DNA of 64,000 nt from a bacterium (GCA_028277985.1 JANQFG010000249.1:1-64000); one strand, 5' to 3'. Positions 26,065 through 59,039 are shown, counted from the stretch's first letter. The notes: generated by a model from the letters alone, not told the origin. Numbers and translations: made by a program.

Positions 26065-27399
26065 CTATTTCTTTCTTCTGTCGATCACCCGGACCGCCTT
26101 GCCTTCACTTCGGGTGATCGATCTGGGCTCTACGAGCTTGATCCGTACCCCGATCCCCAGGATGCTCTCCACTTCCGCCCGGATCCGCTTCTCGACCTTC
26201 GCCATTTCCCTGACCTCATCCGAGAACATCTCCTCCGAGACCTCTACATGTACCTCGATGGTGTCCAGGCTCTTCTCCCTGTCCACATAGATCAGGTAGT
26301 GCGGTGCCGCCTCCGGAATCTCTAGAAGCACGCTCTCGATCTGGGAAGGGAAGACATTGACCCCCCGGATGATCAGCATGTCGTCCGATCGTCCGGTGAC
26401 GCGCTCCATGCGCGCAGTGGTCCTGCCGCAGGAGCACGCATCCCTGGTGAGCCGGGTGATGTCCCTCACCCGGTACCGTAGAAGGGGGATCCCCTCCTTG
26501 GTCAGGGTCGTGATCACGAGCTCCCCGGCCGTGCCGTCGCCCCGGGGTTCGCCCGTGGCAGGGTCGATGATCTCGGGCAGGAAGTGGTCTTCCATGATGT
26601 GGAGGCCGTCTTTCGCCTCGCACTCGGATGCCACACCCGGGCCTATAATCTCGCTCAACCCGTAGATGTCTATGGCCGAAACGTGGAGCTTCTTCTCGAT
26701 CTCCTTTCGGAGGTTGTCGGTCCACGGCTCGGCGCCGAAGACGCCCACCCGCAGAGCAAGATCGCGGGTCGAGATGCCCCTCTCTTCCGCCGCCTCCGCC
26801 AGGTAGAGCGCGTAAGAAGGCGTGGAGCAGAGCACCGTCGTTCCGAAGTCCTCGAGCAGCGTGATCTGCCGTTTCGTGTTCCCGGTCGAGACCGGCACAA
26901 CCGCTGCCCCGATCTTCTCGGCCCCATAGTGTGCACCCAGGCCTCCGGTGAACAGTCCATAGCCGTAAGCGACCTGGATGATGTCCCCCTGGTGTGCGCC
27001 CGCGGACATCAAGGTCCGGGCCATGACCTCCGCCCAGGTCTCGATATCTTTTCGCGTGTACCCGACCACCGTGGGTTTCCCGGTGGTGCCGGTCGAGGCG
27101 TGAATCCGGATGATCTCATCCATGGGAACGGCGAAGAGCCCGAAGGGATAGTTGTCGCGAAGGTCTGCCTTGGTGGTGAAGGGGATCTTCTGAAGGTCGT
27201 CGAGGCTGCGGATGCTCTCAGGCCGTATGCCCGCCTCTTCCAGCCTGTTCCGGTAAAAGGGCACCTGCCGGTAAACCCTTTCGACCAGAGCCTTGAGCCT
27301 CTCGAGTTGCAGCTCTTCCAGGTCGCGACGGCCGCAGCATTCGGATGCTTCGTTCCAGTACAACGCCCTCTCCCGTCTAGCGCCCCCTGCCGAGCTCAA
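26065..27399 (-). CDS. paaK: Phenylacetate--CoA ligase
   Basis: [44 protein letters not shown]-type C-terminus. Confidence 0.93.
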
Positions 27400-44868: not shown

Positions 44869-46572
44869 TCAGGGACAACCCTTTTCGCTCGTTCCGTAGA
44901 TATAGGGACACTGATCCGCATCCGCATCTTCCTCGACGGATATCGCAAGATCGCCCTCCAATATGCCCGGCGCCCCGGCCACGAATCGGAAACAGGCCGG
45001 GTCACACAGGCCGTCCCCATCCGAATCCGGAACCCCCTTCACCTTGCGGGTGCTGCAGCGGCCGTGCACGGTCGGCAGGCTGTCCTCCACATCCGGAATC
45101 CCGTCCGAATCCCAGTCATAGTCGCCGTTGATCCGGCCGGCAAAGGAGAAGAGCTCTCTGTCCGGAATCCCGTCCAGGTCCCGGTCATAGGTCGACGGAT
45201 CGGTGAACCGAACCCCAAGCGGGATGTCGCATCCGAACCGTGAGAAATAGTACCACTCCTTCTCGTGAACGTATTCGAGCTGCTGCGGCTCCTGATAGAG
45301 ATAGAAAGGTTTGTAGAAAGAGCCTTCCGGAGAGTCATGGAATATTTGCAGCCTCGTTATGACGGACAGGGATTCACGTTGGAGGGACAGCTCATTCCCT
45401 GCGACCCTTCGCACACCCTTTCTCAGAAACCCGATGAAGCCTCCGATGTTCTTTGCGTCGTAAATATTGAATCCCTTGATTCGAGAAGCCGGCTCAACCT
45501 CGATCTCGACCCGGGCCTGGTCCACGATCGCCCTCGACTTCTCCAGCCGAATGTTCGTGTCGATCGAGATCTCTCCGCCAGCACACAGGTCGAGGGGGTC
45601 CGGAATGCCGTCCCGGTCGGTGTCCGGGCCGTCCGAGAATCCGTGAGGAGTGAAAAGGTAGTCGTCCGCCGCGTCCACGACGCCGTCCCGGTCCGCATCC
45701 ATGCAGCGAATGTCATAGCTGTTCTCGCAGAGGATGCGATCCTTTGACACGCATGTGAACCCGTCCCGATCCGGGCATTCCCGCTCGAAGCGGTTCCTGG
45801 GAAGGAATCCGAGCACCTTCATGATGTGTGGGTCGAAGAGGATGCGCGATCCCTCTTCCCTGGGCGCCAGGGGCAGGATCCTCGTTTTCGGAAGGCCGAT
45901 GCTCCATTCCAGCAGGTTCGTGGGCCTGTTCTCCTGGGAAATGTGGTTGTACCCGAACCCGTGAAGGATCTTGTGGATGGCAAGCGCCACTGCCTGCTCG
46001 TCCTCCACCACCTTCGTGTGATCCAGAAAGGTCTCGAGGCAGAGGTAATTCTTCTCGTTGTAGCTGTACCCCTGGCTCGGCCCGTCCGTGCACCATGGAC
46101 CGTAGACTTCAGAGGCGGGGCAGAAGACCAGGATATCGAACAGGAGCCCTTTCGATGCGGCGTATTCCTCGAGAAGACGAATCCAACTCTCGATGCTCCT
46201 GCTGGAATAGGCCAGCTGGTCGTCGCCGATCTCTCTTGCCGGGATGAAGAGCAGTCGAGACGAGATCGCGATCCTGCCGAAGGATTCCCGCTCAATGACC
46301 GATTGGAGGAGGCCAAGCCTTCTCTCATAGATCTTCTGCGGTGGGAGGGGACCGTGGGCATCGTCGTGAAGCACTACGTAGACCAGGCGGAACGCGTACG
46401 CGGGCGGGAGGCCCTCTCGAGGACTCTTCGGATCCGAATCCGATCCTCCTCTCAGCATGACGAAGGCGAAAGAGGCGAGGATCAGGAGCGGCATCGTGAC
46501 GAGCAGGATTCCCCTGAATCTCGAGTGTGTCCTCAACGTCTGCAACACCTGGCTCCTTCCGCGGTTGTTCAA
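44869..46572 (-). CDS. Thrombospondin type-3 repeat (Ca-binding) protein with degenerate metzincin-like motif
   Basis: DxDxDGxxD repeats; HKILHGFGYNH; N-terminal TM/signal. Confidence 0.7.
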   Translation of the reverse strand: MNNRGRSQVLQTLRTHSRFRGILLVTMPLLILASFAFVMLRGGSDSDPKSPREGLPPAYAFRLVYVVLHDDAHGPLPPQKIYERRLGLLQSVIERESFGRIAISSRLLFIPAREIGDDQLAYSSRSIESWIRLLEEYAASKGLLFDILVFCPASEVYGPWCTDGPSQGYSYNEKNYLCLETFLDHTKVVEDEQAVALAIHKILHGFGYNHISQENRPTNLLEWSIGLPKTRILPLAPREEGSRILFDPHIMKVLGFLPRNRFERECPDRDGFTCVSKDRILCENSYDIRCMDADRDGVVDAADDYLFTPHGFSDGPDTDRDGIPDPLDLCAGGEISIDTNIRLEKSRAIVDQARVEIEVEPASRIKGFNIYDAKNIGGFIGFLRKGVRRVAGNELSLQRESLSVITRLQIFHDSPEGSFYKPFYLYQEPQQLEYVHEKEWYYFSRFGCDIPLGVRFTDPSTYDRDLDGIPDRELFSFAGRINGDYDWDSDGIPDVEDSLPTVHGRCSTRKVKGVPDSDGDGLCDPACFRFVAGAPGILEGDLAISVEEDADADQCPYIYGTSEKGCP

Positions 46573-51972: not shown

Positions 51973-53271
51973 TCAGCTTTCTTCGGAATCGTGTGAGAAC
52001 TCCGAGACGAGCACCCGTATCTTGCCGCTTGCATCCGGCTCGAGTCGGTCCTTCCGCTCTATTTCGAGACGGATACCGGGCGGGAACTTCCTCTCAAGCG
52101 CAGCCAGGATCTCTTCTCCGACCTTTTCAAGATAGGAGGGCTCCGCCACGACAAAAATCCGGAAGAGGCTTCCGGACCGCTGCACGATACGATACTGGGC
52201 GATCTCTTCGTACTTTCCCAGCACTTCGTAAAAACTGTGAAACGTGCACCTGGAGCCGTCGGGCAGGAGAGCAACGTCATCTTCGCGACCGATGATTTGG
52301 GTAATTCTCTTCCGTTGTATTCCGTCCGTACCGTCCAGAGACGCATAGACGGCATGGTCTCCCTGATCGTACCGAATAAAGGGCATCACCTCGGCCGCCA
52401 GGTCGGTGACGACGACTCGGCCCGGCTCCCCCGGGGCAACCGGGTTTCCATCGTTGTCCAGGAATTCGAAGTATGTCAGGTCTTCGCACAGGCGCAGCCC
52501 GTCGCGGGTAGGTGTTTCATGCGCCATGACGCCCATTTCCACCGACCCATAGCTCTCCACCAGCTCGGTCCCGAAGGCCTTGCGGTAGAGGTTTCGATGG
52601 TTCTCACGGATCACCTCGGCGGTCCCGATGACCATGGGCCGAAACTGCGCAGGCCCCAGACGACGAGATGCCAATTCCAGGGCGAGCCTATCAAGGTGTG
52701 AGCGATTGCCGTACAAGACGTCCGGCTTGTAGGCGAGAAACAGGTCCACCATATCGTCCGTAGGCGTTTCGTAGCTCACTACGAGTCTCCTCAGGAAACC
52801 CAGCCGCTGCACAAAACTCCGTGCATCCCTGAGTCTCCAGGGGGCTGTCAGAGACATGACCTTCTGCCTAACCGAATAGCCGTTCATGAACAGCACACGC
52901 ATCCATTTGGCCATCTGCAGAGCCCGTTCGTATGGGCCGCGATAGACTCGAAGCGGAATCCCCGTAGACCCGGACGTCATGTCGCTGGAACATCGGGAGA
53001 GATCCGTCCCCTGCTTTGCGAACGCCGCACTTTCTCGCTGCTTCAGAATTCTTCTGTCCGTGATTTCCAAACGGGACAGATCCTTCGGCCCCCCGTATTC
53101 TCTCGTCGGATCGTAGCCTGCACGCTGCATCATCTCCCTGTAGTAGGGAACGTGCAAATAGGCGGATGTGAGTACGGCCCTGAGCCGTTCGTACACTTTC
53201 CTCTCCAGGAGAGACGGGGGCAGCTTCGCATCGGACATGACCTGTCGAAAGGCGAGTGCATTCTTGAGCAT
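51973..53271 (-). CDS. Phenylacetate-CoA ligase/CapK-family adenylate-forming protein
   Basis: DMTSGSTGIPLRVYRGP; ELVESYGSVEMGVMAHE; QIIGREDDVALLPDG. Confidence 0.88.
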   Translation of the reverse strand: MLKNALAFRQVMSDAKLPPSLLERKVYERLRAVLTSAYLHVPYYREMMQRAGYDPTREYGGPKDLSRLEITDRRILKQRESAAFAKQGTDLSRCSSDMTSGSTGIPLRVYRGPYERALQMAKWMRVLFMNGYSVRQKVMSLTAPWRLRDARSFVQRLGFLRRLVVSYETPTDDMVDLFLAYKPDVLYGNRSHLDRLALELASRRLGPAQFRPMVIGTAEVIRENHRNLYRKAFGTELVESYGSVEMGVMAHETPTRDGLRLCEDLTYFEFLDNDGNPVAPGEPGRVVVTDLAAEVMPFIRYDQGDHAVYASLDGTDGIQRKRITQIIGREDDVALLPDGSRCTFHSFYEVLGKYEEIAQYRIVQRSGSLFRIFVVAEPSYLEKVGEEILAALERKFPPGIRLEIERKDRLEPDASGKIRVLVSEFSHDSEES

Positions 53272-53284
53272 GGGATGCTATTCC

Positions 53285-54262
53285 TCAGGACCGTGTCCCT
53301 GAAAAGACTCGACGCAGGATAACGGTGTCTGCTGAATGAATACGTCCGCTGTCCCTGTAAGCCTTCTGCATTGTATGATTCGTGGCGTGAGTAACGTTCA
53401 GCAGTCTGAACTCATGGGCGAGGATCTCGGTAAGCAATCCAGTCAGCCCCTGATAAAGCCCCTGACCGCGATGTTCTTCGCTTACAGCACTGAGCAACTG
53501 GGTGTACGTGTCTCCCTCGAGCCCGGGTTTCTTTCCCACGGCGCTGAAGCCACATACTCGAGAAACACGGGTATCGATTGCGATCAGGAACTGTTCCGGC
53601 GGCACTCCTGTGAAATTCAAATTCATCAGGGCCAGAATATACTCAACGCCGGGGCGTCGCTCGAGCAGAAACGGATCTGTGAAATGTCGGCTGTGGCCCG
53701 ATTCGGAAAAGGACCGGCGACAAAGTCGAAGAATCTCCTCGCGGCAAGAAGATATTCGAGACCGCGGGACCCCGGATAGGGAAGTGTATTCGATTTCTTC
53801 TCTTCCGCGAATCGTCTCCTTGAGCCGGAGGTCGCCGACTCTGCAAGTGTAGAGACGGCGCTTTTCCACCTCCTCGAAGCCAGACCTGAGGAGTGCCTTG
53901 TACGCCGGCTGTCCCGGGACCACCTTCGCAGCCACGTAGGCCTCTCCCGAGGGTCTTGTTGTGAGCATCTTCTCGAGTTCCTCCTCGGAGAGTTCGTCGA
54001 GAACGGGATTTTCAAGAGCCGCACTCAGAAGATTGCCTTGCGGATCGTCCGCTTCCAGGACCAGATACCATACGGAAAGCCCGTACAGGTTCGATTCCAG
54101 CTCGTTTTGATGAGCCGTCCATCGCAACCTCCCTCCAAGATGGTCCCTCTGCCGGGTCCAGGTTCCGTGTTCCAGGGCCTGACCCCCGGAAAGAAGGGGA
54201 GCCTTCTGTCCCAGAGGTTCATGGTACCCCATTTCCGGCCAGTCGCTACGATGATAGCTCAT
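53285..54262 (-). CDS. GNAT family N-acetyltransferase-like protein
   Basis: LLSAVSEEHRGQGLYQGLTGLLTEILAHEF..NVTHATNHTMQKAYRDSG acetyl-CoA-binding pattern. Confidence 0.75.
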   Translation of the reverse strand: MSYHRSDWPEMGYHEPLGQKAPLLSGGQALEHGTWTRQRDHLGGRLRWTAHQNELESNLYGLSVWYLVLEADDPQGNLLSAALENPVLDELSEEELEKMLTTRPSGEAYVAAKVVPGQPAYKALLRSGFEEVEKRRLYTCRVGDLRLKETIRGREEIEYTSLSGVPRSRISSCREEILRLCRRSFSESGHSRHFTDPFLLERRPGVEYILALMNLNFTGVPPEQFLIAIDTRVSRVCGFSAVGKKPGLEGDTYTQLLSAVSEEHRGQGLYQGLTGLLTEILAHEFRLLNVTHATNHTMQKAYRDSGRIHSADTVILRRVFSGTRS

Positions 54263-54270
54263 GCGTCGAC

Positions 54271-56205
54271 TTACATTGCCTGGAGTGGTTTTCTATCCAG
54301 GAACAAGTTTGCCCAGATCTCAAAATTCACGAGTCTCCAGATGGCCTGCAGCTGCTCTTCGTGCAGACTGGAGAGATTCTCGAAACATTGGGGGATCATT
54401 CGTCCGTTGTAGATGCCGCGTCTCTGGATGCCCGGGAGGATGGAATCGAGCACCCACTCCTGAAGTGCAGGGAAACTGAAGAAATGCCTCAGGGGAGTGG
54501 CAAAACCGATCTTGTATCTGTAGGCGAATCGTCTGCCAAAATGCCTCGATGCGATCTTCTTCAGCACGACCTTCGTTCCTTTTGTGACCGAACGGTGTCT
54601 CCTGGCCAGGTACTGTGTAGGGATTCGCCTTGCGAGTTCGACAAGATGATGATCGATCAAGGGCACGCGATTCTCGATGGAATTCGCCATCGTCATCTTG
54701 TCTTGCCTCATGAGGACGTCAACGAGCCACGTCCTGAGTTCGTACCGTTGCGCCTTCCTGACGAAATCACCCGTCCCGGAATGGAAGAGCTCTCTCCTCC
54801 TCGTCATGAATCGCTCGATGCGGAAATCTTCCTTGATTTCCCTCAGGGTTTCCTGGCTCAGATAGGATGACCTCGTGATATACCAGTCGACGTGGTCGAA
54901 ACGATCGGGCGACAAGGTCATGTATCGTTCCCAGATGTAATGCTTCAAGTATGGATTGTTCCTTATCAGGAAAGAGTAAGCTCTGTTGTCGAGAAGATGC
55001 CCGCCGTAGAATCTTTCGTACCCTGCAAAGAGCTCGTCGGCTCCCTCACCGCTCAGGAAGACGGTGAAGTATTCTCTTGCCTTTTCCGACAGCAATTTGA
55101 TGGCCACCGAACTCGGATGCAGCAACGGGAAATCGTAGTGCCAGACAGAGGATCGGAGATTCTGAAGAAAGTACTCCTCTGTCAGCCTGAATTTGTACGA
55201 CCGGATGTTGGCCGCACGTGCAACATAGTCGATCCAGGGTTCCTCGGAGAAGAGCGGATGCTCGAATACGATGGAAATGGCCTGCAAGTCGTAATCTTTG
55301 AGATGGTTGCCTGCGAAGAGGGTGATCAGGGAGGAATCGATACCCCCGGAAAGCTGACACCCCACCTTCACATCACTGATCATTCTCAGCTTCAGACTTC
55401 GTAACAAACCCCCTTCTACCCGATCGCAGACTTCCTGGAAATTCGAATTTTCCGGTTGATCCTCGTTGTATATGTCCCAGTATTTGTGTCTGCTTATGCC
55501 GCCTCCATCGATCACGACATATTCGCCCGGTTCCACGTTGTATACGTCCTTGAGAAGCGTCTCTCTTCCGTAAATGGCCCCGAACTTGGTGTGCTCGTCC
55601 AGGTGCGTTGGGTCCAGCCGGGGTTCGAACGCTTGGTTGAACAGGAAGGATTTGACTTCAGACGAGAAAAGAACCAGGTCGCCCTTGGTGTAGTAGTAGA
55701 GGGGCTTGATGCCCAGCCTGTCCCTTGCCAGGCAGATCCTTCTCTCCTTCAGATCGATGATGCAGATGGCAAACATGCCGTTCAGCTTCTCCAGCATTTC
55801 CGGGAAGCCATAGTACTCGTACAGATACAGCAGGATTTCCGTGTCTGTCCTGCTCCTGAACACGAATCCTTTCTCTTCGAGGAAATCCCTGTATTCATAT
55901 GCGTTGTAGACTTCTCCGTTGAATGCCAACAGGGTCTTTCGCTTCGGATCGATCATGGGCTGATGGCCATTGTCCGAAAGATCGATGATCTTCAACCGGT
56001 TACAGCCTATGGCACCTTCAAAGGGCACCTCTGATTCCGGAGGTTGGGATGGGTCGATTTCTCTCCAGTTCGTTCTGTCGAAGGAAAAAAGAACCACGCC
56101 GCTGTCGTCGGGGCCTCTATGGCGGATGCAGTCGGTCATTTCGACGAATTCATGGACCCGGCTGATCGGTTTGCCGGGATGGTACAGACCTACGAAGCCG
56201 CACAT
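54271..56205 (-). CDS. asnB: Asparagine synthase (glutamine-hydrolysing)
   Basis: MCGFVGLYHPG Cys nucleophile; RHRGPDDSG; QLSGGIDSSLIT; LSGEGADELFAGYERF. Confidence 0.95.
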   Translation of the reverse strand: MCGFVGLYHPGKPISRVHEFVEMTDCIRHRGPDDSGVVLFSFDRTNWREIDPSQPPESEVPFEGAIGCNRLKIIDLSDNGHQPMIDPKRKTLLAFNGEVYNAYEYRDFLEEKGFVFRSRTDTEILLYLYEYYGFPEMLEKLNGMFAICIIDLKERRICLARDRLGIKPLYYYTKGDLVLFSSEVKSFLFNQAFEPRLDPTHLDEHTKFGAIYGRETLLKDVYNVEPGEYVVIDGGGISRHKYWDIYNEDQPENSNFQEVCDRVEGGLLRSLKLRMISDVKVGCQLSGGIDSSLITLFAGNHLKDYDLQAISIVFEHPLFSEEPWIDYVARAANIRSYKFRLTEEYFLQNLRSSVWHYDFPLLHPSSVAIKLLSEKAREYFTVFLSGEGADELFAGYERFYGGHLLDNRAYSFLIRNNPYLKHYIWERYMTLSPDRFDHVDWYITRSSYLSQETLREIKEDFRIERFMTRRRELFHSGTGDFVRKAQRYELRTWLVDVLMRQDKMTMANSIENRVPLIDHHLVELARRIPTQYLARRHRSVTKGTKVVLKKIASRHFGRRFAYRYKIGFATPLRHFFSFPALQEWVLDSILPGIQRRGIYNGRMIPQCFENLSSLHEEQLQAIWRLVNFEIWANLFLDRKPLQAM

Positions 56206-56267
56206 GGATGCCTCATTTCTAGTTGCGGTTTTGCGTACTGCCGAAGGAATTCAATATACTCGGACAC

Positions 56268-57032
56268 ATGAAATACACCTTCGGGACAGATGAAGCCGCA
56301 GCGCGGAGATTGGAGAGAATCGCCCAATTCTTCAATCCTCCTGCGGTCGAGTTTATCAGCAAGGGCGTCGACGGGCCCGTTGGTTCCGCTATCGACTTGG
56401 GGTGCGGTCCGGGTTATACCACCGGAATGCTTTCCGGCGCAATCGACTGCCCGGATGTCTATGGGTTGGATACCTCCCCGGGTTTTCTGAAGATGGCAGC
56501 GGACCGGTTCCCCCATTGCACTTTTGTAGAGCACGACGTGACAAAGGCCCCTTTTCCTGTCCGGGCCGAGCTCATGTACGTTCGTTTCCTGCTCTCTCAT
56601 CTTCGAGACGTGGTCGATCTCGTGAATTTCTGGACGACCCAACTCGAGCCCGGAGGGAGGCTCCTCGTAGACGAGCTGGAAGGGATCGAAACAGAGGTGC
56701 CGGTCTTCGAGGAGTATCTTTCGGTCAACGAAGCGCTGGTGGCTTCACAGGGCGCGTCGCTCTATGTGGGCGGCAACCTGGCTGAGGGTTCTTACGATTC
56801 CGAGGTCCTGTGCAACGAATGCGTGGAGATTCCGGTCCCGAACGGCACGGTGGCCACGTGGTTCCTGTCGAACACGCTCACCATCTGGAAGGAAGACCCC
56901 TTCGTGCTCGAGCGGGTTGCCCCTGACAGAAGAAGAGAGATATCGGACGAAATCCGCCGAATCAAGGAAACCGGCGATCCTCGGATGGCAAACTCCTGGA
57001 AGATGAGAAGGCTGGTCCTGCAGAAGGCATGA
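56268..57032 (+). CDS. Class I SAM-dependent methyltransferase
   Basis: AIDLGCGPGYTTGMLSGAIDCPDVYGLDTSPGFLKMA. Confidence 0.9.
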   Translation: MKYTFGTDEAAARRLERIAQFFNPPAVEFISKGVDGPVGSAIDLGCGPGYTTGMLSGAIDCPDVYGLDTSPGFLKMAADRFPHCTFVEHDVTKAPFPVRAELMYVRFLLSHLRDVVDLVNFWTTQLEPGGRLLVDELEGIETEVPVFEEYLSVNEALVASQGASLYVGGNLAEGSYDSEVLCNECVEIPVPNGTVATWFLSNTLTIWKEDPFVLERVAPDRRREISDEIRRIKETGDPRMANSWKMRRLVLQKA

Positions 57033-58141
57033 GGCCCTCCGGAGGGGATCTCGTGGAAGAAACTGTTGCCGCTTACATATATCCGGGCTGGCATGCCTGC
57101 CCGGAACGGGACCGGGGGTTTCCGCCGGGATGGAGCGAGTGGGACCTCGTCCTCGAGGCAGAGCCCCGATTCCCCGGACACGAGCAACCGAGGATCCCGC
57201 TCCATGGCCCTTATGATGATTCCCTTCCGGAGACCGCCTCGAAGCAGATTCACCTGGCGCGGACCTATGGCGTCGATGTGTTCGTCTACGGCTTCTTCTG
57301 GTCCAGGGGCAAGAGGGTCTTCGAAAGCGCCTTGGACCACGGCTTTCTCGGTCTCGCCTCGGCGGATCTCCCGTTCGCAGTCATGTGGGCGAACCGGATG
57401 CCCCGGAAGGTGCTTCCCGTGAAGCATGCCAGTGACTCCGAGATCCATCCGGACCGGCTCGTGTATACCGACACGGAGGACTTCCTGGCCCTGATTCGGT
57501 TTCTTGCAGAGCGTTACTTTGTCAGGCCGAACTACTTCCGGCTGAGCGGCAGGGTCCTGTTCTCGGTGTTCGACAGCACCTTCTTCGTGCGGCAGATGGG
57601 AGCAGACGGAGCACGGGAGGCGATCCGGGAAGCGAGATGCATGCTTGCCGACCGGGGCCTGCCGGATCTTCATCTCATGGCCCTGAACCCGGCGCCCTCC
57701 CTGGTGCAGGATCTCGGCCGCATCGGTTTTGACAGTGCGAGCCATTACGTTCTTCTTCCGGAGTGGAAGGGGGAATACCTTCAGGACTATGGCTCGCTTG
57801 TGTCGCGCAGGGCCGGGGAATGGCCGGGCTATCTCAAGGAAGCGGGCGTCCCGTACTTTCCGTCCGTCTCGCCGGGGTGGGACGCGACGCCCCGCGGAGT
57901 GATGCACGGCGGCCGTCGGGTCAGGAGGTATCCGTGGTGGCCCGTGGTCGTGGACAGCACGCCCGAACGGTTCCGGGATTTTCTGGCGGCCGCCATGCGG
58001 TTCAGCAGAGGGGACGACGAGGGCGCCCTCACCTTTATCGCCTCCTGGAACGAGTGGAGCGAAGGGCACTATCTCGAGCCGGATGAACGGTACGGAACCG
58101 GCTGGCTGGAGGCGGTCCGGGAGGCAAGAAGCCTTGCATGA
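57029..58141 (+). CDS. WbsX-like/glycoside hydrolase family 99-like protein
   Basis: AAYIYPGWHACPER..GWSEWDLV..TYGVDVFVYGFFWSRGKRVFE; FIASWNEWSEGHYLEPDERYG. Confidence 0.88.
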   Translation: MRPSGGDLVEETVAAYIYPGWHACPERDRGFPPGWSEWDLVLEAEPRFPGHEQPRIPLHGPYDDSLPETASKQIHLARTYGVDVFVYGFFWSRGKRVFESALDHGFLGLASADLPFAVMWANRMPRKVLPVKHASDSEIHPDRLVYTDTEDFLALIRFLAERYFVRPNYFRLSGRVLFSVFDSTFFVRQMGADGAREAIREARCMLADRGLPDLHLMALNPAPSLVQDLGRIGFDSASHYVLLPEWKGEYLQDYGSLVSRRAGEWPGYLKEAGVPYFPSVSPGWDATPRGVMHGGRRVRRYPWWPVVVDSTPERFRDFLAAAMRFSRGDDEGALTFIASWNEWSEGHYLEPDERYGTGWLEAVREARSLA

Positions 58142-59039
58142 CTGGAGCTTTCTCTCGGTAGACCTGGAGATCACCAATCTTTGCGAAAACCGCTGCGAGG
58201 TCTGTCCCCGAGATGCGCTGGTACGCCCCACGGGTGTCATGGACCGGAAGACCTTCCTCGAGATTGCCCGTATCCTCGGAGAGCAGAAGAGCCTCGTCTC
58301 CCTATCGGGAATGGGGCACCCGGTTCTTCATCCACAGCTGGTGGATGTCTGCCGGGAGTTGAAGGGAAACGGTGCGGACGTGTCCATCCTGATGAACGCG
58401 GGCTCCCTGGCGGGCTACGCGGAGCTCGAAAATCTCATCCTTGCCGGGCCGAACTCGATCTCGGTGTCTTTCCCAAGCTCGAGAAAAGAGGTGTTCCAGA
58501 AGATTTGCCCGGGCGTGTCTTTTGAAGAGGCTCTGGATGGAACACGCACCTTGATCCGGTCGGCCCGGGGCAGAGTATCGGTCAAGGTCTCAGGGATTCG
58601 GACGCGGATCAACGCGGACGAGAACGATGCGTTCGTCGGCTTCTGGAAGACCGAAGGCGTGCAGGCCGAGTTGATGGACTGCCACGGAAGGGGTGGCAGT
58701 CTCTCTGCATCAGACCTCTACCTTCCGGGCGATCACGGACTTCCGACGGGGAGCTGCGGACTCTTTGCTTTTCACACCTTTATTACATGGCAGGGGGAAG
58801 TGCTCGCCTGTTGCCATGACCTCGCCGGCGAGACGCGCCTCGGCAATCTCCTTGAAGTGGGACCCGAAGAAATCGGGAATCGCAAGATGGAGATTCTCAG
58901 GAGGGGGAGGATGTTCGATCTCTGCAACCGATGTGACGAGCCGCTGCGCCTCTGCGAACTTCCCCGCGGAACCCGTCCGACAAACCGAAACGGCCGCCGC
59001 CGCTTCTTCCGAAGCCTCATGATCAAGGCGGAAGGGTAA
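58083..59039 (+). CDS. Radical SAM/SPASM protein
   Basis: ITNLCENRCEVCPRD; C-terminal CNRCDEPLRLCEL; overlaps preceding CDS (TTG at 58134 is alternative start). Confidence 0.88.
   Translation: MNGTEPAGWRRSGRQEALHDWSFLSVDLEITNLCENRCEVCPRDALVRPTGVMDRKTFLEIARILGEQKSLVSLSGMGHPVLHPQLVDVCRELKGNGADVSILMNAGSLAGYAELENLILAGPNSISVSFPSSRKEVFQKICPGVSFEEALDGTRTLIRSARGRVSVKVSGIRTRINADENDAFVGFWKTEGVQAELMDCHGRGGSLSASDLYLPGDHGLPTGSCGLFAFHTFITWQGEVLACCHDLAGETRLGNLLEVGPEEIGNRKMEILRRGRMFDLCNRCDEPLRLCELPRGTRPTNRNGRRRFFRSLMIKAEG

Follow-up and report, generated by a model that had tools for sequence, protein, structure and literature searches.

We analysed a 64,000-nucleotide stretch of bacterial DNA (GCA_028277985.1, JANQFG010000249.1:1-64000; hereafter the window), in which six genes at 51973-59039 had originally been predicted, from the sequence, to form one divergent biosynthetic cassette. 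The results showed that the six genes are real but are not supported as one shared pathway, and that the conserved unit consists of two neighbouring plus-strand genes, which encode a WbsX protein resembling glycoside hydrolase family 99 (GH99) and a radical S-adenosylmethionine (SAM) protein resembling BtrN. The two proteins belong to distinct clades that are linked in the genome and that co-occur even where their genes are unlinked.

The scan of the phylum with WbsX gave four further genomes with a relative at 51-62% identity, the next best match being 39%; the radical SAM protein, used as query in its own scan, returned the same four, for a total of 5 of 297 genomes that carry both clades. 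In 85,000 species genomes this WbsX clade is represented by 64 loci (49-64% identity); identity then falls to 36% or less, and the clade has 100/100 support on the tree. A radical SAM gene lies immediately downstream of WbsX in 15 loci, from Scalindua, Kuenenia, deltaproteobacterial metagenome-assembled genomes (MAGs) and Riflebacteria, and also in genome G030, with the two genes overlapping by 8-11 bp in eight measured loci; three further loci have overlaps of 1 or 23 bp. In ten loci inspected gene by gene, the pair sits among differing housekeeping or unrelated genes. In some deltaproteobacteria the pair is flanked by a short-chain dehydrogenase/reductase (SDR) gene immediately 5' of WbsX and by an EamA transporter gene immediately 3' of the radical SAM gene; no small conserved open reading frame (ORF) of at least 60 aa was found beside the pair, and a ribosomally synthesised and post-translationally modified peptide precursor was thus rejected as a candidate. 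Among the papers searched, none combines 'WbsX' or 'GH99' with 'radical SAM'.

Several individual loci may be recorded here. Two of them (L100, 8086-12385; L101, 410-4584) hold a five-gene run of a spore-photoproduct-lyase-like gene, SDR, WbsX, radical SAM and EamA, and in L230 and L103, where the radical SAM gene is unlinked, an EamA gene again lies directly 3' of it. At L114 (11076-11462), from a Scalindua rubra MAG, the radical SAM protein is reduced to a 113-aa match, perhaps through a frameshift or an assembly error.

For the remaining WbsX loci, radical SAM searches were carried out across the whole of 50 related genomes, of which 7 carry type A WbsX and 43 carry type B. All seven type A genomes have a radical SAM protein scoring at least 340 bits, including two in which it is unlinked (L111, L119), while in the 43 type B genomes the search reaches 106 bits at most. 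The counting odds for 7 versus 43 are about 1e-8, a figure that ignores kinship and for that reason overstates the independence of the genomes. Since type B forms one clade in the tree (100/100), with the window placed in the type A, radical SAM-associated set (99/96), the pattern is explained by a single loss of the partner. Residues 24/44/92 (window numbering) are mostly C24/A44/S92 in type A and mostly I24/C44/C92 in type B, and this switch goes along with the loss of the partner, the two exceptions both lying at residue 24.

The WbsX protein is a stand-alone (beta/alpha)8-type enzyme. Its AlphaFold2 (AF2) model has a predicted local distance difference test (pLDDT) score of 89.8, and the top 37 Foldseek matches are all GH99 or GH99-type structures, from E 2.6e-15 (4ad0, the best) to 2e-12, with a probability of 1.00. 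The GH99 catalytic dyad is E404/E407 in human MANEA (PMC11025385), and the ExxE motif defines the dyad of the family (PMC12394665). The corresponding residues of WbsX are E342 and E345 (E342-x-x-E345, in SWNEWSEGHYLEP), which are invariant in 34 of 34 aligned sequences (alignments A1 and A5). WbsX therefore shares both the fold and the E-x-x-E dyad, within NEWxEG, with the endo-alpha-1,2-mannosidases and mannanases of GH99 (BtGH99, BxGH99, human MANEA), but it is only about 15% identical to them, belongs to PF14307 rather than to a characterised GH99 group, has no evident export signal and is paired with a radical SAM gene; the activity of the GH99 family, endo-alpha-1,2-mannosidase action via a 1,2-anhydro sugar, is for WbsX at most a prediction. 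The WbsX proteins of O-antigen loci belong to the same Pfam family, yet the clade of the window is separate from them (36% identity or less, or 39% or less in the phylum scan) and is stand-alone, whereas WbsX proteins elsewhere are found within glycan loci or as parts of giant fusion proteins. By eye, neither WbsX nor its radical SAM partner shows an evident signal sequence.

For the radical SAM protein, the profile search against the PDB placed BtrN first at E 4.9e-10, well ahead of MoaA (3e-5), and Foldseek with its model (pLDDT 83.8) also gave BtrN as the best match (4m7t, E 7.4e-10). The CX3CX2C radical SAM motif, which BtrN shares, is present with C34, C38 and C41 invariant, and R203-G204-G205 superposes on the RGG of BtrN (residues 152-154), which holds its catalytic arginine. 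The further invariant cysteines are C200, C225, C243, C244, C281 and C284; among them C225, C243, C281 and C284 align with the four cysteines of the auxiliary-cluster region of BtrN and would form a putative twitch cluster. The TTG at 58134 is the likelier start than the ATG at 58083, because the resulting N-terminus, M-HDWSFLSVD, matches the starts of relatives (MPSDWAFVSVD), and with it the overlap with WbsX becomes 8 bp. BtrN is the radical SAM dehydrogenase of butirosin biosynthesis, with an amino-cyclitol as its substrate. It performs a two-electron oxidation of 2-deoxy-scyllo-inosamine and carries a four-Cys auxiliary cluster (PMC9012708). In comparison to BtrN, the family of the window has extra invariant cysteines, the motifs CHxRGGNL and CCHDL and a GH99-like partner, and no aminoglycoside or 2-deoxystreptamine genes were recognised near the pair in ten related loci read by eye.

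We regard it as an evenly balanced proposition that WbsX and the BtrN-like radical SAM protein are the functional unit, two cytosolic enzymes that act together on a glycoside of a sugar or cyclitol. The substrate, the order of the steps and the product that we infer for the pair are as follows. By analogy with BtrN, the radical SAM enzyme would abstract a hydrogen from a sugar or cyclitol at a carbinol carbon and would pass the second electron to its auxiliary cluster, giving a ketone, and the GH99-like enzyme would cleave or transfer the same glycosyl unit via E342/E345. Accessory functions would be local, namely the methyltransferase in the window and, in subsets of the relatives, an SDR and an EamA exporter, and the SDR and EamA neighbours would fit reduction or epimerisation, and export. 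A tentative extension, which we put a little short of even chances, is that anammox planctomycetes, deltaproteobacteria and Riflebacteria share an undescribed cytosolic core, whose BtrN-like radical dehydrogenase and GH99-like enzyme would have one glycoside as their common substrate; the resulting keto-sugar would be cleaved, transferred or, by the SDR encoded beside the pair in some genomes, epimerised.

Several observations weigh against such a step. The protein resembles BtrN only weakly in sequence, at about 18% in the fold alignment, C200 and C244 are invariant without a BtrN counterpart in the alignment, the chemistry of SPASM/twitch proteins is very varied, and sactisynthases and MoaA score close behind BtrN in the fold search. 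A large WbsX clade (46 rows) is without the radical SAM protein throughout, so WbsX cannot universally depend on it. Several of the type A genomes are close kin (Scalindua), so the independent events are fewer than the counts; many relatives are MAGs with short contigs, and the neighbouring genes point to no substrate.

The strict adjacency of the pair, with overlapping genes, would also fit a maturation system in which the radical SAM protein modifies WbsX itself, as the anaerobic sulfatase-maturating enzyme (anSME) does with sulfatases, WbsX being the final enzyme. The SPASM/twitch class includes maturases of proteins and peptides, anSME structures are among the fold matches, and type A WbsX proteins carry C24 and S92 in place of the I24 and C92 of type B. 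However, in G030 and G180, where the radical SAM gene still adjoins WbsX, residue 24 is leucine or valine, and no candidate target residue is therefore tied to the radical SAM protein; modification of C24/S92 was rejected, the conspicuous candidates failing to track the partner without exception. Type B WbsX proteins moreover retain the dyad without any radical SAM protein, and BtrN, the nearest relative, acts on a small molecule. On balance we consider maturation of WbsX unlikely.

The reading of the pair as a two-enzyme step on a glycoside leaves four genes of the block to be accounted for (Table 1). ORF families were assigned by Pfam and NCBIfam profiles and by PDB sequences, and the predicted assignments are secure for the asnB-type, methyltransferase, WbsX and radical SAM/SPASM genes. 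The ORF calls agree with the original prediction on the six genes and their places, with minus-strand gaps of 8 bp (asnB/GNAT-like) and 13 bp (GNAT-like/CapK-like) and a plus-strand run of methyltransferase, WbsX and radical SAM in which adjacent ends overlap, by 4 bp (ATGA) for methyltransferase and WbsX.

Table 1. The six genes and the divergent intergenic region (window coordinates)
Feature	Position	Strand	Evidence
CapK-like ligase (PaaK/CapK-like, putatively adenylate-forming)	51973-53271	-	2y27, E 1.2e-16
GNAT-like protein (possibly tandem GNAT), orphan	53285-54262	-	PF00583, E 0.021, sub-cut-off
asnB, glutamine-hydrolysing asparagine-synthase-type amidotransferase	54271-56205	-	TIGR01536, above cut-off
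Divergent intergenic region, asnB/methyltransferase, 62 bp between starts	56206-56267	.	
Class I SAM-dependent methyltransferase, ATG start, first in the plus-strand run	56268-57032	+	PF08241, E 8e-12
WbsX/GH99-like protein, core gene 1	57029-58141	+	Glyco_tran_WbsX (PF14307), E 8e-50
BtrN-like radical SAM/twitch-SPASM protein, core gene 2	58083 (likelier TTG 58134)-59039	+	PF04055 + PF13186

The methyltransferase (Methyltransf_11) is a local accessory and is not conserved with the WbsX-radical SAM pair: among the 297 genomes of the phylum it has a single close relative (57%), with no WbsX or radical SAM gene nearby, and at the related locus L120 a different methyltransferase occupies the place upstream of WbsX.

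In the minus-strand operon, asnB matches PF00733 and PF13537, scores 390.8 bits on TIGR01536 against a cut-off of 267 and encodes an MCGF N-terminus and an SGGIDSS loop, and its relatives are mostly 29-40% identical. The CapK-like protein stays under the cut-off of the AMP-binding profile (22.5 bits versus 29.9), but PaaK structures nevertheless align and the motifs SGSTG, YGSVEMG, IRYDQGD and SGK are readable, with the closest relatives in the phylum 29% identical; judged from sequence, it is a diverged PaaK-type adenylate-forming enzyme. A resemblance at the superfamily level links asnB and the CapK-like gene to the XrtA/PEP-CTERM or NAGGN-type amidotransferases and the PaaK or DVU_1553-type ligases, but the scores are far below the cut-offs of those families (309 versus 817, 306 versus 570, 95 versus 300 and 65 versus 646 bits). 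For the GNAT-like protein, a motif (EEHRGQGLYQGL) was spotted by eye and the whole protein matches PF00583 at 15.5 bits against a curated cut-off of 20.7, which it does not reach; the acetylation capability attributed to the set thus keeps a profile match, but a very weak one. No relative of this protein was found in 147 other genomes of the phylum, plasmids, viral contigs, genome contigs or the PDB, nor by a short-pattern scan of the 85,000 species genomes.

Two further observations concern these families. A second PaaK/CapK-like ligase is encoded on the same contig at 26065-27399 of the window (minus strand; match 26212-27321, E 2e-12), and in G303, whose unlinked radical SAM gene is some 6 kb away, an asnB-like C-terminal fragment was recognised by eye at L231 (3-863).

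Only 62 bp separate the divergent starts, a compactness that would suit a single lineage-assembled pathway of six genes, in which the products of the minus-strand trio would supply an acyl group in activated and amidated form and those of the plus-strand run would construct and methylate the sugar part. The G+C content at third codon positions (GC3) of the asnB, CapK-like, methyltransferase and GNAT-like genes is 0.61-0.70, below that of most flanking genes, and homology to sister genomes stops at both edges of the block (51968 and 59060), which means that the block is not beside the same flanks there. The sharp edges are weak evidence for an island, however, because other neighbours also differ and the gene order of the sisters is not conserved at all around the block, and GC3 divides the set, WbsX (0.77) and the radical SAM gene (0.72) being host-like and the trio not. 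No other genome examined carries the combination, and none of the 64 related WbsX loci, inspected together with flanks of up to 10 kb on contigs some of which are short, has a homologue of asnB, GNAT, CapK or the methyltransferase. Since the six-gene set shows no conservation, the small uncharacterised pathway of the original prediction is retained in the form of a two-gene core of WbsX and radical SAM, and the other four genes, which are not conserved with it, drop out; one pathway of all six genes is distinctly improbable. The asnB-GNAT-CapK operon is best seen as an orphan that this genome acquired separately; it may or may not feed the product of the pair.

The window lies on contig C99 (93.9 kb) of an 8.85-Mb assembly with an estimated contamination of 7.85%. 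The contig fits its genus: sister G001 has the left-hand glucose-methanol-choline (GMC) oxidoreductase at 84% identity, and sister G002 has the right-hand SDR at 85%. Carriage by a mobile or viral element was rejected, viral contigs giving only remote WbsX matches (25-26%) and plasmids a best identity of about 32%. A consensus scan of the 62-bp divergent region found no promoter-like site, and the promoter and terminator scans gave results at chance level.

A further reading, which we consider very improbable, takes the block for what is left of a surface-polysaccharide (O-antigen/capsule) locus, or for a part displaced from one. The name WbsX derives from O-antigen loci, and asnB-type and CapK-type genes lie within 7-22 kb of each other on one contig in several genomes of the phylum, as in G001:C260, in which they are 6.7 kb apart in a polysaccharide-type locus. 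Yet the original prediction had seen no glycosyltransferase in the block, and none of glycosyltransferase family 2 (GT2, PF00535) or family 4 (GT4, PF00534) was matched on the entire contig, flippase and polymerase families not having been searched separately, although elsewhere in the genome these two families give about 40 and 34 matches, respectively. Together with the housekeeping and variable genes that surround the pair in the ten loci, this bears out the earlier view that the block is not an O-antigen or capsule locus, and for the WbsX-radical SAM pair the polysaccharide reading is largely refuted.

Elsewhere on the contig, a 567-aa ORF (44869-46572, minus strand) without a Pfam match contains HKILHGFGYNH, which resembles the metzincin zinc motif HExxHxxGxxH with the catalytic Glu replaced by Lys, and Asp-rich DxDxDGxxD repeats; it is possibly an inactive secreted metalloprotease.

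To our knowledge, very few pathways are known in which a radical SAM enzyme dehydrogenates sugars or cyclitols. If the proposed step of WbsX and its BtrN-like partner is true, the pair, including its members in anammox bacteria, would be a testable lead to a new modification of glycans or small molecules, and it would aid the functional assignment of a branch of the family that is loosely named 'glycosyltransferase WbsX'.

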